From a candidate division WOR-3 bacterium (lineage in GTDB: Bacteria; Hydrothermota; UBA3072), in contig JBDRZZ010000004.1 in NCBI GenBank assembly GCA_039804165.1, forward strand, positions 1 through 64,000: DNA of 64,000 nucleotides, read 5' to 3'. Positions within the stretch are counted from its first letter, which is position 1. Every line of letters starts with the position of its first letter. The translations under genes and the position numbers were made by a program. Below the pieces are notes generated by a model, which was not told the DNA's origin, did no database searches, and saw only the letters and a list, made by a program, of their open reading frames with translations. Below, one piece after another: positions 46,428 through 53,501 of this stretch.

Positions 46428-49400
46428 ATGAAGAAAAATTTATTATTTGTTTTAATTATCCCTTATCTTATATATTGTAATGATTTAGGAATAAGGTTTG
46501 CACATCTTACAGCTCAAGACGGCCTTTCTCACAGTTGGATTGTCACTATCTTAAAAGACAAATATGGGTATATGTGGTTTGGAACAGAAAATAATGGAAT
46601 TAATAAATACGATGGTTACAAATTCACAATATATAAAAATGATCCAAATGATAAAAGAACTATAAGTGATAATGGGATTAATGTTATATATGAAGATAAA
46701 AAGGGAATTTTGTGGGTTGGAACAAAAAGAGGGCTTAATAAATATAATAGAGAACTAGATCGTTTTATTCCTGTCAATTCTTTCATTGACGACTATGTCC
46801 AGGGAATTTACGAAAGGGAAGATGGTAATTTCTATATCACCACTATTTATAATTTTGCCATTTATTATCCCGAAAAAGACTCCTTTTCTCTTTTAATTAG
46901 TGAAGATCAGAAATTGCCGTATGTATTTATAAAAAAGGGGATTATCCAATACGAAAAAAACAAATTCTTGGTTGCTACAAGAGCTGGACTTTTATCTTTA
47001 GACGCTACTACAAATCAGTTTACTGTTGTAAAGAAAGATATAGATATTAGATCTATATATAAAGATACGAAAGGGAGAATATGGATAGGAACAGAAAAAG
47101 ATGGATTATTTTGTATGACTTATGATAAAAAAAATCCCAAAAAATTTGTTTTCAAAAATTATAATCATCAAAATAACAATGAATATAGCCTAAGTCCAGG
47201 AGCAATTGTAACAATAGAGGAAGACAATAATGAATTCTTATGGATAGGAACAGAAAAAGATGGATTAAACCTAATGAATCTGAAAATTTTTGAAAAGAAT
47301 AATTATCCTATATTTCACCACTATCGTAATATACCTTATGATAATTCATCTCTTTCAAATAACGGAATTACCTCTATTTATAAAGATAACGAAGGCACAA
47401 TGTGGATTGGGGCTTATAATGGTGGTGTTAACTATTATAGCAAACTCTTATACAAATTTCAACATATAAAGAGTATTCCAAATAACCCAAATAGCTTGAG
47501 TGATAATAATGTTAACGTGATCTATGAAGAAGAGGATCGTCTGTGGGTCGGAACACAAAAAGGAGTTGATATATTTGATAAAAGAAACAATAAATGGGAA
47601 CACTTATTTTATGAAGAAAGAAATCCTAACTCTTTGAGCCCAGGTGCTGTTTGGGCAATCTTAAGAGATAAGCACAATAATATCTGGATAGGAACTTGGG
47701 GTGGAGGATTAAGTATTCTAAATGAAAAGAAGAAAACATTTACTCATTATCTACACAATGAAAAAGACGAAAACAGCCTTAGTAAAAACAACATTTTTGG
47801 AATCACAGAAGATAAAGAAGGAAACTTGTGGATTGCTACAATGGGAGGAGGGCTTGACAAGTTTGATTATAAATCAAAAAGTTTTAAGCATTATAAAAGC
47901 AATCCTGATGATCCTAAGAGTCTTACAAATAATTGGGTAAAAATGGTTATAGAAACTCATTCTGGAGAGTTATGGGTTGCAACAACTGCGGGTGTCAATG
48001 TTTTTAATAAAGAAAAAGAAGTTTTTACCCATTTCATCCACAATAGAGAAGATCCAAGGAGTATTAGTTCTGATGCAATTGTTATTATTTTTGAGGACAG
48101 TAAACACAATATATGGGTTGGAACGGAAAATGGATTAAATCTCTTTAACCCAGATAGTAATAATTTCATCCTTTATAATGAAGAAGATGGCCTGCCAAAC
48201 AATGTAATAAGAGGAATTTGTGAAGATAATAAAGGGAATCTCTGGGTAAGCACTAATAAAGGCTTATCAAAATTCATTAATGCTATTAATCGTCCAAAAA
48301 AACCAATTTTTGAAAATTATGATGTAAGTGACGGACTTCAAGGAAATGAATTTAATAGTAGAGCTTGTCTTAGAGGAAAAGATGGAAGATTATTCTTTGG
48401 AGGAAATAACGGCCTTACAATCTTTCATCCTGATAGCATAAAAAGAAATCATTTTGTTCCTCCTGTAGTTATAACAAATATTCTACTTTTCAATAAAGAA
48501 GTTCCAATTGGAAGAGAAGATTCTCCATTAAAAAAACATATTAGTCTTTTAAAAGAAATCGTATTATCTTATAAGAATTCAGTAATCACCCTTGAATATG
48601 CGGCATTAAATTTCTTAGCCCCAGAAAAAAATCAGTATGCATTTATGCTTGAAGGCTTCGACGAAGATTGGAACTATGTTGGAAATAAAAGAGAGGTAAC
48701 ATATACAAATTTAGCTCCAGGAACTTATACATTTAGAGTAAAGGGCTCTAATAACGATGGAGTTTGGAATGAAGAAGGAACTTCTCTCAAAATTATCATA
48801 ACCCCTCCCTTTTGGAAAACAGTATGGTTTAGACTTATTATCTTAATATTCATTGGCGGATTTATTCATTTTATATTCTGGATTCGCGTAAAAAGAATAG
48901 TAGCCTATGGTCGTGAGCTTGAAAAGAAAGTCGCAGAAAGAACAAAAGAATTGGAAAGTTTCGCATATATAGTTTCCCATGACCTAAAAGCTCCTCTCCG
49001 AAGTATAAATCAATTATCTGAGTGGATCATTGAAGACTATTATGAGAAACTTGATGAAAAAGGAAAAGAAAATTTAAAACTTCTTAAAGATAGGACCTTG
49101 CGAATGAACAATATGATTCAAGGAATATTAGAATACTCAAGAATTGGAAGGACCGAAGGCGAAGTTGAAAAAGTCGATTTAAACAGCTTGGTAAAAGAAA
49201 CAATTGAGATATTATCTCCCCCAAAAAATATAAAAATAAAAATAGAAAATAAATTACCAATCTACATGGCTGATAGAACACGCCTAATCCAGATTTTCCA
49301 AAATCTTTTAAGCAATGCAATAAAATACATAGACAAGCCAAAAGGCATCATAAAGATTGGATGCACCGAAGAAAAAAACTATTGGAAATTCAGTATTTCA

Positions 49401-49601
49401 GATAATGGCCCTGGGATTGACAAAAAGTATCATGAGAAAATTTTTGAGATATTCCAAACTTTGGGCAATAAAAAAGAAGAAAGCACAGGGATTGGCTTAA
49501 CCATAGTAAAGAAAATAGTAGAATTATATAAAGGTAAAATATGGGTAGAATCTAAATTAGGTAAAGGAACAACATTTTTCTTTACCTTACCAAAGCAATA
49601 A
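46428..49601 (+). CDS. Giant propeller sensor histidine kinase (two-component regulator propeller, Y_Y_Y, HisKA-HATPase)
   Basis: A 1057-residue membrane sensor. Signal peptide (1-18); about 13-14 Reg_prop repeats between residues 25 and 630, each with a WIGT-like core (MWFGTENNGINKYDG, LWVGTKRGLNKYNRE, IWIGTEKDGLFC and so on), folding as a double propeller. A Y_Y_Y domain follows (about 700-790, ending LAPGTYTFRVKGSNNDG). One membrane helix (about 801-823) leads to HisKA with phosphoacceptor H851 (SHDLKAPLR) and a complete HATPase (NLLSNAIKY, DNGPGI, GIGLTI). This is the layout of Bacteroides-type polysaccharide sensors, but without the fused receiver and AraC domain. The receiver gene 26 bases downstream is the obvious partner. 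Confidence 0.93.
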   Translation: MKKNLLFVLIIPYLIYCNDLGIRFAHLTAQDGLSHSWIVTILKDKYGYMWFGTENNGINKYDGYKFTIYKNDPNDKRTISDNGINVIYEDKKGILWVGTKRGLNKYNRELDRFIPVNSFIDDYVQGIYEREDGNFYITTIYNFAIYYPEKDSFSLLISEDQKLPYVFIKKGIIQYEKNKFLVATRAGLLSLDATTNQFTVVKKDIDIRSIYKDTKGRIWIGTEKDGLFCMTYDKKNPKKFVFKNYNHQNNNEYSLSPGAIVTIEEDNNEFLWIGTEKDGLNLMNLKIFEKNNYPIFHHYRNIPYDNSSLSNNGITSIYKDNEGTMWIGAYNGGVNYYSKLLYKFQHIKSIPNNPNSLSDNNVNVIYEEEDRLWVGTQKGVDIFDKRNNKWEHLFYEERNPNSLSPGAVWAILRDKHNNIWIGTWGGGLSILNEKKKTFTHYLHNEKDENSLSKNNIFGITEDKEGNLWIATMGGGLDKFDYKSKSFKHYKSNPDDPKSLTNNWVKMVIETHSGELWVATTAGVNVFNKEKEVFTHFIHNREDPRSISSDAIVIIFEDSKHNIWVGTENGLNLFNPDSNNFILYNEEDGLPNNVIRGICEDNKGNLWVSTNKGLSKFINAINRPKKPIFENYDVSDGLQGNEFNSRACLRGKDGRLFFGGNNGLTIFHPDSIKRNHFVPPVVITNILLFNKEVPIGREDSPLKKHISLLKEIVLSYKNSVITLEYAALNFLAPEKNQYAFMLEGFDEDWNYVGNKREVTYTNLAPGTYTFRVKGSNNDGVWNEEGTSLKIIITPPFWKTVWFRLIILIFIGGFIHFIFWIRVKRIVAYGRELEKKVAERTKELESFAYIVSHDLKAPLRSINQLSEWIIEDYYEKLDEKGKENLKLLKDRTLRMNNMIQGILEYSRIGRTEGEVEKVDLNSLVKETIEILSPPKNIKIKIENKLPIYMADRTRLIQIFQNLLSNAIKYIDKPKGIIKIGCTEEKNYWKFSISDNGPGIDKKYHEKIFEIFQTLGNKKEESTGIGLTIVKKIVELYKGKIWVESKLGKGTTFFFTLPKQ

Positions 49602-49626: not shown

Positions 49627-50037
49627 ATGAAGAAAAAACAAGCAATTTTACTGGTTGAGGATGACGAAGTAGATATAAAAAGCGTAGAAAGAGCTTTTAG
49701 CGATCTTAGGATTACAAATCCTTTAATTGTAACCCATGATGGGAAAGAAGCTTTAAATTATCTAAATAACGAAAAAAATAAGCGCCCGGGGCTTATCCTC
49801 TTAGACATAAAAATGCCAAGGATGAATGGAATAGAATTTCTAAGAATTGTAAAAAGGAAAGATAAATTGAAAATCATTCCTATTGTTATTCTAACTACCT
49901 CAAAAGAAGAAAAAGATAAGATGGAAAGTTTTAATCTTGGAATTGCAGGGTATATGATGAAACCTGTGAATTACAAAGATTTCGTTGAAGTAATTAGAAC
50001 AATTAAGATGTATTGGACTCTATCGGAGACACCATAA
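49627..50037 (+). CDS. Rcp1-type single-domain response regulator
   Basis: A 136-residue receiver with no output domain. ILLVEDDEVD supplies the acidic pair, D60 (LLDIKMPRMNG) is the phosphate acceptor, with TTS and the KPVN Lys. The pattern LLVEDDEVDIKSVERAF and LLDIKMPRMNGIEFL is the Rcp1 subgroup, which usually pairs with HisKA kinases of the SHDLKAPLR class, exactly as found upstream. Strong AGGAGG ribosome site. Its TAA overlaps the ATG of the next kinase gene (TAATG). Likely relays phosphate or controls a protein partner rather than DNA. Confidence 0.92.
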   Translation: MKKKQAILLVEDDEVDIKSVERAFSDLRITNPLIVTHDGKEALNYLNNEKNKRPGLILLDIKMPRMNGIEFLRIVKRKDKLKIIPIVILTTSKEEKDKMESFNLGIAGYMMKPVNYKDFVEVIRTIKMYWTLSETP

Positions 50038-51479
50038 TGGAAAAGAAAAAATATCAAATACTTTTAGTAGAAGATAATAAATTTGACCAATTGGCTTTAA
50101 AAAGATTTGTAGAAAAAAACAATCTTCCTTATGAAATTGAAACGGCAAGTTCTATCTCTGAATGTAAAGAAGCTCTAAACTCAAAAACATTTGATGTAAT
50201 TCTCCAAGATTTCCAACTTAAAGATGGAACAGCTTTTGACGTGCTAAATTTAAATTTAAAAGAACCTGTTATTATAATAACAGGTCTTGGAAATGAAGAG
50301 ATAGCTGTTAACTGCATGAAGGCAAATGCTTATGATTATATAATAAAAGATCCTGAAAGTAATTATCTAAAGCTTCTACCCTCAATTATAGAAAACGTGA
50401 TCCAAAGGAAAAAAGTAGAAGAACAACTTAAACTAATAAAACATTCTATTGACAATGCCTCTGAATCTATTATTTGGTTATCTCCTTCTGGAGAAATTAT
50501 ATTTGCAAACAAATATTCTTTCAAAGAGCTAGGTTATTCTGAGAAAGAACTATTGACAACAAAATGGCACAATATATGTCCTGAATTTACAGAAGAAAAA
50601 TTTAAAGGATTTGTAAACACTCTCAAAAGAAAAGGTCACTTAAGCTTTGAGTCTTCTTATCGCAAAAAGGATGGCGAAACCTATCCCGTAAACATTCATG
50701 TAGATTATCAAATTTTTGGTAAGAAAGAAGTTATTTTTGTATCTGCTCATAACATTACAGAACAAAAAAATATAGAACAAGAAAGACAAAAAATTCAAAA
50801 ACTTGAATCTATCGCAATCCTTACAGGAGGAATTGCAAATAACTTTGAAAAATTTCTTAAAGACATCACTTTGAATGTTAAGCTTGCAATAACAAAAAGC
50901 GGAAACAATGAAGAATTAATTAATATATTAAAAGAGGTCCAAGAAACAGTAAATCTTGCAAAAGATCTAACAAAAAAACTATCTACATTTGCAAGTGGAG
51001 GAGCCCCTAATAAAGAAATTACAAAAATTTCAGAAATAATAAAAGAAGAAACAGAATCCAATCTCAGAGGTTCCACCGTGAAATTACTTTATAATTTTCC
51101 AGAAGATATTTGGAAAGTAAGTGTGGATAAAAATCAGTTTAGGCAAGTAATTAATAATTTACTCAATAATGCAAAAGAAGCAATGCCAGAAGGCGGAATA
51201 ATAAAAATAAATCTTGAAAATACAACTGTAGAGAAAGATTCAAATCTACCTCTTAAAGAAGGAAAATACGTAAAAATAACAATCAAGGATAACGGTTTAG
51301 GAATTGCAAAAAAACACTTACCAAGAATATTCGAACCATATTTTACTACAAAACAAAAAGGAAGTGGATTAGGTCTTTCTCTTGTATACTCAATTATACA
51401 GAAACACGACGGATATATAGGAGTAGATTCAAAACTCGGAGAAGGGACTACTTTCTATATTTATCTTCCTGTAGCATAA
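50037..51479 (+). CDS. Receiver-PAS-histidine-kinase-like protein with His-to-Asn change at the phosphoacceptor site
   Basis: A 480-residue soluble protein. N-terminal receiver (1-125) with D58 in ILQDFQLKDG; PAS domain (about 133-245) with the usual RKKDGETYPVNIHV and AHNITEQK; then a dimerisation helix and a HATPase domain with intact N box (NNLLNNAKEA), DNGLGI, FEPYFTT and GSGLGLS. In the H box the usual GGIAHDFNN reads GGIANNFEK, so N268 replaces the conserved His. It should bind ATP but cannot autophosphorylate in the normal way. It may act as a receiver-controlled phosphatase, an allosteric partner of the propeller kinase, or a decayed kinase. Start ATG 50037 is preferred over the TTG at 50013. 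Confidence 0.88.
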   Translation: MEKKKYQILLVEDNKFDQLALKRFVEKNNLPYEIETASSISECKEALNSKTFDVILQDFQLKDGTAFDVLNLNLKEPVIIITGLGNEEIAVNCMKANAYDYIIKDPESNYLKLLPSIIENVIQRKKVEEQLKLIKHSIDNASESIIWLSPSGEIIFANKYSFKELGYSEKELLTTKWHNICPEFTEEKFKGFVNTLKRKGHLSFESSYRKKDGETYPVNIHVDYQIFGKKEVIFVSAHNITEQKNIEQERQKIQKLESIAILTGGIANNFEKFLKDITLNVKLAITKSGNNEELINILKEVQETVNLAKDLTKKLSTFASGGAPNKEITKISEIIKEETESNLRGSTVKLLYNFPEDIWKVSVDKNQFRQVINNLLNNAKEAMPEGGIIKINLENTTVEKDSNLPLKEGKYVKITIKDNGLGIAKKHLPRIFEPYFTTKQKGSGLGLSLVYSIIQKHDGYIGVDSKLGEGTTFYIYLPVA

Positions 51480-51563: not shown

Positions 51564-52067
51564 ATGAAGCAAAAAGTCAAAAGAAAACAACCAAATTCTA
51601 AAATGTGCTTTGTCTGCGGTCTTTTAAATAACCTCGGTCTTAAAGCTAATTTTTACGAATTAGAAAACAAGAAATTGGTTGGGATTTTTAAACCAAAAGA
51701 AGAACACCAAGGTTATCCAGAACGACTTCACGGAGGAATAATTACTGCCATTATAGACGAAACAATAGGAAGAACTATTTTTATGAATTCTAAAGAGGAT
51801 GTTTGGTTCCTCACCTTAGAAATTAATGTTAATTTTAAGAAGCCCGTTCCTCTTAATGAGGAAATAAGAACAATTGCATGGCTCACAAAAGAAACAAGTA
51901 GAACTTACGAAGGACAAGGAAAGATTGTCTTAAGCAATGGAAAAGTTGCAGCTGTGGGCTACGGAAAATATATGAAAATACCTATTCAAAAGATAGCAAA
52001 TTTCGATTATCAAGAAGATTGGAAAGTCACTTTCAAAAAAGAAGACCCAAAAGAAATAGAAATTTAA
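51564..52067 (+). CDS. PaaI-like hotdog-fold thioesterase
   Basis: A 167-residue protein of the PaaI/4HBT type. N-terminal MCFVCGLLNNLGLKANFYE is typical of a subgroup with a CxxCG start; LHGGIITAIIDETIG is the hotdog helix with the catalytic acidic residue; the LEINVNFKKPVPLNEEI strand follows. It probably hydrolyses an acyl-CoA in the cytoplasm. Substrate unknown; neighbours give no hint. Confidence 0.85.
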   Translation: MKQKVKRKQPNSKMCFVCGLLNNLGLKANFYELENKKLVGIFKPKEEHQGYPERLHGGIITAIIDETIGRTIFMNSKEDVWFLTLEINVNFKKPVPLNEEIRTIAWLTKETSRTYEGQGKIVLSNGKVAAVGYGKYMKIPIQKIANFDYQEDWKVTFKKEDPKEIEI

Positions 52068-52070
52068 ATG

Positions 52071-52098
52071 TTGACTTTCGAGTTAAGTTCTATAAAAT
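52071..52098 (+). promoter_or_regulatory. Predicted promoter of threonine synthase
   Basis: TTGACT (52071-52076), 16-nt spacer, TAAAAT (52093-52098). The leader to the ATG at 52140 is about 35 nt with no strong ribosome site. Confidence 0.5.
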
Positions 52099-52139
52099 CT
52101 AATGGGTATAACCTAATTAAAAGAGTGTAAATTTGTGAA

Positions 52140-53501
52140 ATGATAAAATACTATAGCACAAATAGAGAATTAAACACTAAGGAAATAAAAGGTTTTAAAG
52201 GCGAAGTAACATTTAAAGAAGCTCTCTTTATGGGGCAAGCTCCGGATGGCGGACTTTTTATGCCAACCTATTTACCTTTATTCCCAGAAGAAAAAATCCT
52301 TTCTCTAAAAGGTAAACCTTATTTTGAAGTAGCATTTGAGATCCTTAGAGAATTCATTAAATATGAGATAGACCAGAAAACATTAAAGAAAATTTGTGAA
52401 GAGGCTTACACTTTTAGCATACCTATTGAGGTAATAACTAAAAATGTTTATCTTGCAAGAATGGACGAAGGACCAACTGCTTCATTTAAAGATTTTGCAG
52501 CTCAGGTAATGTCAAGGTTAATGGAAGCCTTAAAAGAAAAAGAAGAAAAAATCACTATTTTGGTAGCTACTTCTGGAGACACTGGAAGTGCAATAGGAAA
52601 TGCATATAAGAATCTTCCAGGGATTAAAGTGTTCATTCTATATCCAAAAGAAGAAGTTAGCGAAATTCAATATAAACAGTTAAACGCTATAGGAGAAAAT
52701 GTTAGCACTATAGCTATAGATGGAAAATTTGATGATTGTCAACATCTTGTGAAACAAGCTTTTAGCGATCCAGAACTAAAGGAACTGAATTTAACCTCTG
52801 CGAATTCAATAAATATTGGAAGAATTTTACCTCAAATAGTTTATTATTTCTATACTTATGTAAATGTAGTAGAAAAATTTGAACCTGCAATTTTTTCCGT
52901 TCCTTCAGGAAATTTCGGAAATTCTTTGGGTTGTGAATTCGCTCGAAGAATGGGTTTACCTGTAGCACCTCTTATAATTGCTACAAACGAAAATGATGAG
53001 TTTCCAAGATTCCTAGAAACAGGAATTTATAAGAAACTTGAGCCATCTCGAAAATGCCTATCTAATGCAATGAACGTCGGCAATCCAAGCAATCTTGCAA
53101 GATATTTTGATCTATACGGAGGAATCTTAGATAGAAAAGGAAAAATTTACAGAAATCCGAATCTTAACGAAATGAGAAAATATTTGTATTCTGTTTCTAT
53201 AAATGACGAAGAAACAATTGAAACAATTAAAGAAATTTACGAAAAATATAATGTTTTACTTGAACCTCATGGAGCTGTAGGTGTAGCAGCTTTACTAAAC
53301 CATTATAAAAAAATTGATAAACCTGCCATCTGTTTTGAAACCGCTCATCCTTCTAAGTTTCCAGAAATAATAGAAAAAACTCTAAATATAATCCCTAATC
53401 CCCATCCTTCCTTAATCGGTATCGAAAGTAAAGTTAAAGAGCCAAAACTTCTTCCAAATGATTACAAAACTTTCAAAGAATTCCTCTTAGAATTAAAATA
53501 A
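52140..53501 (+). CDS. thrC: Threonine synthase
   Basis: PLP enzyme converting O-phosphohomoserine to threonine. DEGPTASFKDFAAQVMSRLM contains the PLP Lys (K117), LVATSGDTGSAIGNAY is the phosphate/PLP loop, and FSVPSGNFGNSLG and HGAVGVAALLNHY follow. Length 453 and the N-terminal YYSTNRELNTKEI region match the ThrC subgroup with an N-terminal domain. Monocistronic, ended by a hairpin that begins within the stop codon. Confidence 0.95.
   Translation: MIKYYSTNRELNTKEIKGFKGEVTFKEALFMGQAPDGGLFMPTYLPLFPEEKILSLKGKPYFEVAFEILREFIKYEIDQKTLKKICEEAYTFSIPIEVITKNVYLARMDEGPTASFKDFAAQVMSRLMEALKEKEEKITILVATSGDTGSAIGNAYKNLPGIKVFILYPKEEVSEIQYKQLNAIGENVSTIAIDGKFDDCQHLVKQAFSDPELKELNLTSANSINIGRILPQIVYYFYTYVNVVEKFEPAIFSVPSGNFGNSLGCEFARRMGLPVAPLIIATNENDEFPRFLETGIYKKLEPSRKCLSNAMNVGNPSNLARYFDLYGGILDRKGKIYRNPNLNEMRKYLYSVSINDEETIETIKEIYEKYNVLLEPHGAVGVAALLNHYKKIDKPAICFETAHPSKFPEIIEKTLNIIPNPHPSLIGIESKVKEPKLLPNDYKTFKEFLLELK

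Follow-up and report, generated by a model that had tools for sequence, protein, structure and literature searches.

To our knowledge, descriptions of pseudo-histidine kinases in bacteria are few. DivL of Caulobacter crescentus is a kinase-fold protein that acts by contact, lacks autokinase and phosphatase activity and senses a phosphorylated receiver (PMC4211667); its phosphoacceptor His is replaced, and it retains the other histidine kinase motifs together with a conserved DHp patch near the replaced residue. It binds ATP weakly, can dispense with its CA domain, and is described as PAS domains and a histidine kinase without an N-terminal receiver. NifL of Azotobacter vinelandii combines PAS with a histidine kinase-like core; its GHKL domain binds ADP, which strengthens NifA binding (PMC9866876), and it controls this operon partner through contact and not by acting as a kinase (PMC9866876, PMC8063818). 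It keeps the conserved His and has no receiver. LvrB of Leptospira, a REC-HK 'hybrid response regulator', joins an N-terminal receiver to a histidine kinase module with the active-site His161, and is phosphorylated by its operon-partner kinase (PMC5863495). CckA-type HisKA kinases carry the motif GG[IV]AHDFNN, and the title of 5idj describes CckA as a bifunctional kinase-phosphatase.

The window, by which we mean the whole 64,000 nucleotides of DNA that were analysed, encodes a protein with likenesses to each of these, REC-PAS-pseudo-HK, as the third gene of a histidine kinase / receiver / REC-PAS-HK cassette (Table 1). The kinase and receiver genes are separated by 25 bases, and the ATG of the third gene overlaps the receiver stop by one base (TAATG, 50035-50039), with GGAG just upstream. 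Pfam orders the protein as REC (residues 8-109), PAS (146-242) and HATPase_c (364-479), and the residues for receiver phosphorylation are all present, the codon for D58 lying at 50208-50210. The N-terminal receiver with a phosphorylatable Asp, followed by a histidine kinase module, is the architecture of LvrB; unlike LvrB, the protein has a PAS domain between receiver and kinase core and no active-site His. With DivL it shares a histidine kinase fold in which the phosphoacceptor His is replaced, and it may also resemble DivL in lacking both activities and in sensing a phosphorylated receiver. The two differ in that the DHp motif is lost in the pseudokinase, in that its CA domain is the conserved part, and in its N-terminal receiver. 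Like NifL it couples PAS to a histidine kinase-like core, whereas it has a receiver and no His, and no NifA-like gene adjoins it. DivL and NifL serve here as working analogies, and membership of either family is not claimed. CckA-type kinases are the nearest by sequence among solved structures (5idj), from which the protein differs in having lost the motif for both activities and in having no C-terminal receiver.

Table 1. Coordinates of the cassette genes and of the domains of REC-PAS-pseudo-HK in the window.
Feature	Position	Strand	Evidence
Sensor histidine kinase: Reg_prop propeller, Y_Y_Y, HisKA (intact SHDLKAPL), HATPase_c	46428..49601	+	Pfam
Stand-alone receiver, Rcp1-like, 136 aa, GGAGG upstream	49627..50037	+	Pfam Response_reg E 1.7e-21
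REC-PAS-pseudo-HK, 480 aa	50037..51479	+	ORF call, Pfam
Receiver domain, N-terminal (E12, D13, D58, K104)	50037..50372	+	Pfam Response_reg E 1.2e-12
PAS domain	50472..50762	+	Pfam PAS_9 E 2.5e-10
DHp-like helical hairpin, residues 241-320, active-site motif lost	50757..50996	+	AlphaFold2 helices, column counts, no HisKA match
Degenerate H box N268 N269 F270 E271 K272 for H-D-F-N-N	50838..50852	+	
HATPase_c (CA); N, G1, F and G2 boxes intact	51126..51473	+	Pfam PF02518 E 4.1e-25

An earlier sequence-only reading had placed Asn268 (AAT at 50838-50840) at the position of the phosphoacceptor His, with the receiver Asp D58 and every ATP-binding box intact. Its coordinates and residue calls are correct, and none of the 29 conserved CA columns departs from the family. 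Its description of the lesion as the selective loss of one residue is wrong, as seven of 16 near-invariant DHp columns are changed. The family motif HDFNN reads NNFEK, so that besides the His the protein has lost the Asp at H+1 (N269), the Asn at H+3 (E271) and the Asn at H+4 (K272); outside this motif, changes are found at columns 263 (Ala in the family), 279 (Gly) and 316 (Leu). No match to Pfam HisKA (PF00512) is obtained at an E-value of 0.001, and every kinase homologue tested does match. In HisKA proteins an acid at H+1 is required for autokinase activity and Thr or Asn at H+4 for phosphatase activity (PMC3510030). Compared with an active HisKA kinase, the protein thus has Asn for the His of the H box, Asn for the acid at H+1 and Lys for the Thr/Asn at H+4, and retains the N, G1, F and G2 boxes of HATPase_c. 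With the His, the H+1 acid and the H+4 Asn missing, both autokinase and phosphatase activity are predicted to be lost.

Conserved columns were defined as those with at least 90% conservation among 38 homologues (alignment A1). Departures at columns 263, 268, 269, 271, 272, 279 and 316 of the DHp domain (7/16), against 0/29 in the CA domain, give a Fisher's exact p of 2.5e-4; four of the seven lie close together and are perhaps non-independent, and counting them as one event gives p about 0.006 (our own arithmetic). The homologues have at most three DHp departures each (n=38); they were gathered with the pseudokinase as query, which biases them to CA-domain similarity, and the conservation of the columns is a property of the family. 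The protein shares 39-48% identity with its nearest relatives over DHp and 50-60% over CA, whereas among the intact relatives themselves DHp is better conserved than CA (median 64 vs 59). As judged from the sequence, the active-site lesion does not extend beyond the DHp domain, and the ATP-binding domain is complete.

The AlphaFold2 model built with an alignment has a mean pLDDT of 89.6 and a pTM of 0.59, the latter leaving the arrangement of the domains uncertain. Helices 241-287 and 292-320 form the DHp hairpin, and the CA fold is complete. Foldseek and phmmer searches place the protein among histidine kinases: structure matches include the CckA DHp-CA with ADP (5idj), LvrB (8vc9) and NifL (9qq6, Foldseek), and DivL (4q20) is a sequence match. 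The nearest solved kinase by sequence, 5idj, has an E-value of 2.4e-30, with 32% identity in the fold match. Model, fold matches and N268 together show one feature of a pseudo-histidine kinase, a histidine kinase fold kept without its phosphoacceptor.

The nearest relatives of the kinase core are GGIAHDFNN multi-PAS kinases of the same genome and family (45-54% identity), several of which have a C-terminal receiver; the genome itself contains three intact GGIAHDFNN paralogues (C3, C6 and C24). The pattern GG[IVM]AxDFNN was sought in 147 genomes of the phylum and gave 69 matches, of which 68 are kinase sites, all with His. The remaining one, GIALDFNN in G109, has Leu and belongs to a repeat protein that is not a kinase. 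The DNA pattern G[IV]AN[ND]F matches in 15 genomes, about as many as a reversed-pattern control, and only the window's own match lies in a kinase; the 147 genomes thus gave no further example of His replaced by Asn. No orthologue was detected in the one congener or in the 147 genomes of the phylum; the scan of genome contigs yielded only relatives at 27-53% identity, and that of viral contigs no relative. His occupies this position in all readable H boxes of the homologous loci. The protein is so far a singleton, present in one genome only. The inverse arrangement is seen in G128 (L088:1636-3303, G128:C13), where a PAS-HK-REC gene lies directly upstream of another kinase gene; its product has an intact GGIAHDFNN and a degenerate ATP-binding domain that departs at 10 of 32 conserved CA columns (the G2 box, for instance, has SDRDFLGL).

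Related cassettes occur elsewhere in the phylum. The order kinase / single receiver / REC-(PAS)-HK is also found in G050, G014 (at a contig end), G036 and, within family f22, eight genomes; G025, again at a contig end, has part of it. G138-G140 have a related kinase directly adjoining the REC-PAS-HK gene. All the third-gene kinase modules that were read in such cassettes retain the His. The core of the kinase at 46428 is 55% identical to that of the kinase adjoining the REC-PAS-HK gene in G139, the stand-alone receiver is 50-52% identical to receivers of the f22 cassettes, and the receiver domain of REC-PAS-pseudo-HK is about 46% identical to those of the REC-PAS-HKs in G138-G140. The protein looks like a chimera of a cassette-type receiver and a CckA-like core that has no active site or C-terminal receiver, a history suggested by best matches and not by a tree.

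The best account, to which we give about an even chance, is that REC-PAS-pseudo-HK is a receiver-gated, nucleotide-binding pseudokinase acting by protein contact. This account is supported by the DHp-confined loss, the confident DHp and CA fold, the DivL and NifL precedents, and the intact kinases of the homologous cassettes. The receiver residues, the loss of the catalytic motif and the preservation of the CA domain are read directly; phosphorylation of D58, nucleotide binding and a partner are what we infer from them. The kinase at 46428 would phosphorylate both the stand-alone receiver at 49627 and D58. Phosphorylation of D58, with any PAS ligand, would reset the PAS-helix-CA assembly. Affinity for a partner, which might be a kinase, a receiver or another protein, would be tuned by the ATP or ADP occupying the CA domain; the output would be binding and not phosphoryl transfer. 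We advance only tentatively, as something we think unlikely, the proposal that the protein is a receiver-controlled nucleotide switch in which ATP binding (perhaps turnover) is under strong constraint and the phosphotransfer surface has been discarded, the reverse of DivL with its retained docking surface and dispensable ATPase domain.

The main rival to the pseudokinase account is decay at an early stage of an orphan gene, in which an accessory kinase in an orphan cassette has lost its active site and is being eliminated, its receiver being at most a phosphate sink. We consider this improbable overall, yet to be taken seriously: the gene is confined to one genome, the kinase at 46428 is itself missing from 12 near relatives at an E-value of 1e-60, and the conserved thioesterase-thrC pair downstream of the cassette (51564-53501 in the window; L114:12474-14521 in the congener; 67% and 75% identity) has no such cassette alongside in the congener. 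Against decay, the frame 50037-51479 is open over 480 codons with normal codon usage, the CA boxes and receiver residues are all in place, and the start-stop overlap with the receiver gene is preserved, although the DHp lesion may simply be too recent for the CA residues to have changed. The sequence-only reading had favoured a new role, as pseudokinase, phosphatase or allosteric unit, over decay. A pseudokinase or allosteric unit with a preserved nucleotide site fits the domain-restricted loss; the words 'rather than decay' go further than the data, there being no orthologue by which selection for the changed state could be recognised.

Next comes a trans-acting half-kinase, with the protein in a heterodimer with a His-bearing paralogue whose His is phosphorylated by the intact CA domain. 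The complete CA domain, the three intact paralogues in the genome and the His-bearing, CA-degenerate kinase of G128 beside another kinase are consistent with it. The DHp helices, which form the dimer interface, are unusually diverged, however, and among the close paralogues seen in the same genome none has a dead CA domain; we find this reading distinctly improbable. Many HisKA kinases are bifunctional, and a phosphatase-only enzyme acting on the receiver at 49627 is the role that the sequence-only reading had raised; it is disfavoured, and we think it very improbable, as the residue at H+4 is Lys and not the Thr/Asn that HisKA phosphatases need (PMC3510030), and H+3 is changed too. The genome assembly is in 49 contigs, which leaves some room for a sequencing or assembly error, but we give this hardly any credence: a base-calling error is implausible because several substitutions fall within a run of five in-frame codons, the reading frame being kept, and columns 263, 279 and 316 are changed as well.

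Pseudokinases of this general kind are already known, and this variant is so far alone in one genome. The observation as it stands is stronger than that of the sequence-only reading, since the entire catalytic motif has been lost; it is also weaker, being neither a single selective change nor more than a singleton. An intact ATP-binding half and a lost catalytic half, beside cassette relatives that are intact, offer a natural comparison that addresses what a histidine kinase core does besides phosphotransfer, its weight limited while the protein is a singleton without orthologues. If true, the nucleotide switch would let a kinase cascade end in an output by contact, under the control of both receiver phosphorylation and ATP/ADP.

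Some further observations concern the surroundings. Everything upstream of the thioesterase-thrC pair differs in the congener, which puts a synteny break beside the cassette. Scans for promoters and terminators found no more sites than in shuffled sequence. A perfect 10-pair hairpin (GACCTGTTATTATAATAACAGGTT) lies at 50263-50286, inside the receiver coding region, and is terminator-like on the minus strand; terminator-like sites in this region are no commoner than in shuffles. A REC-multiPAS-GAF protein of 1172 aa (L137:2771-6286, G048:C1), which ends in a GAF-like and coiled region and apparently has no kinase module, carries a receiver related to that of REC-PAS-pseudo-HK.
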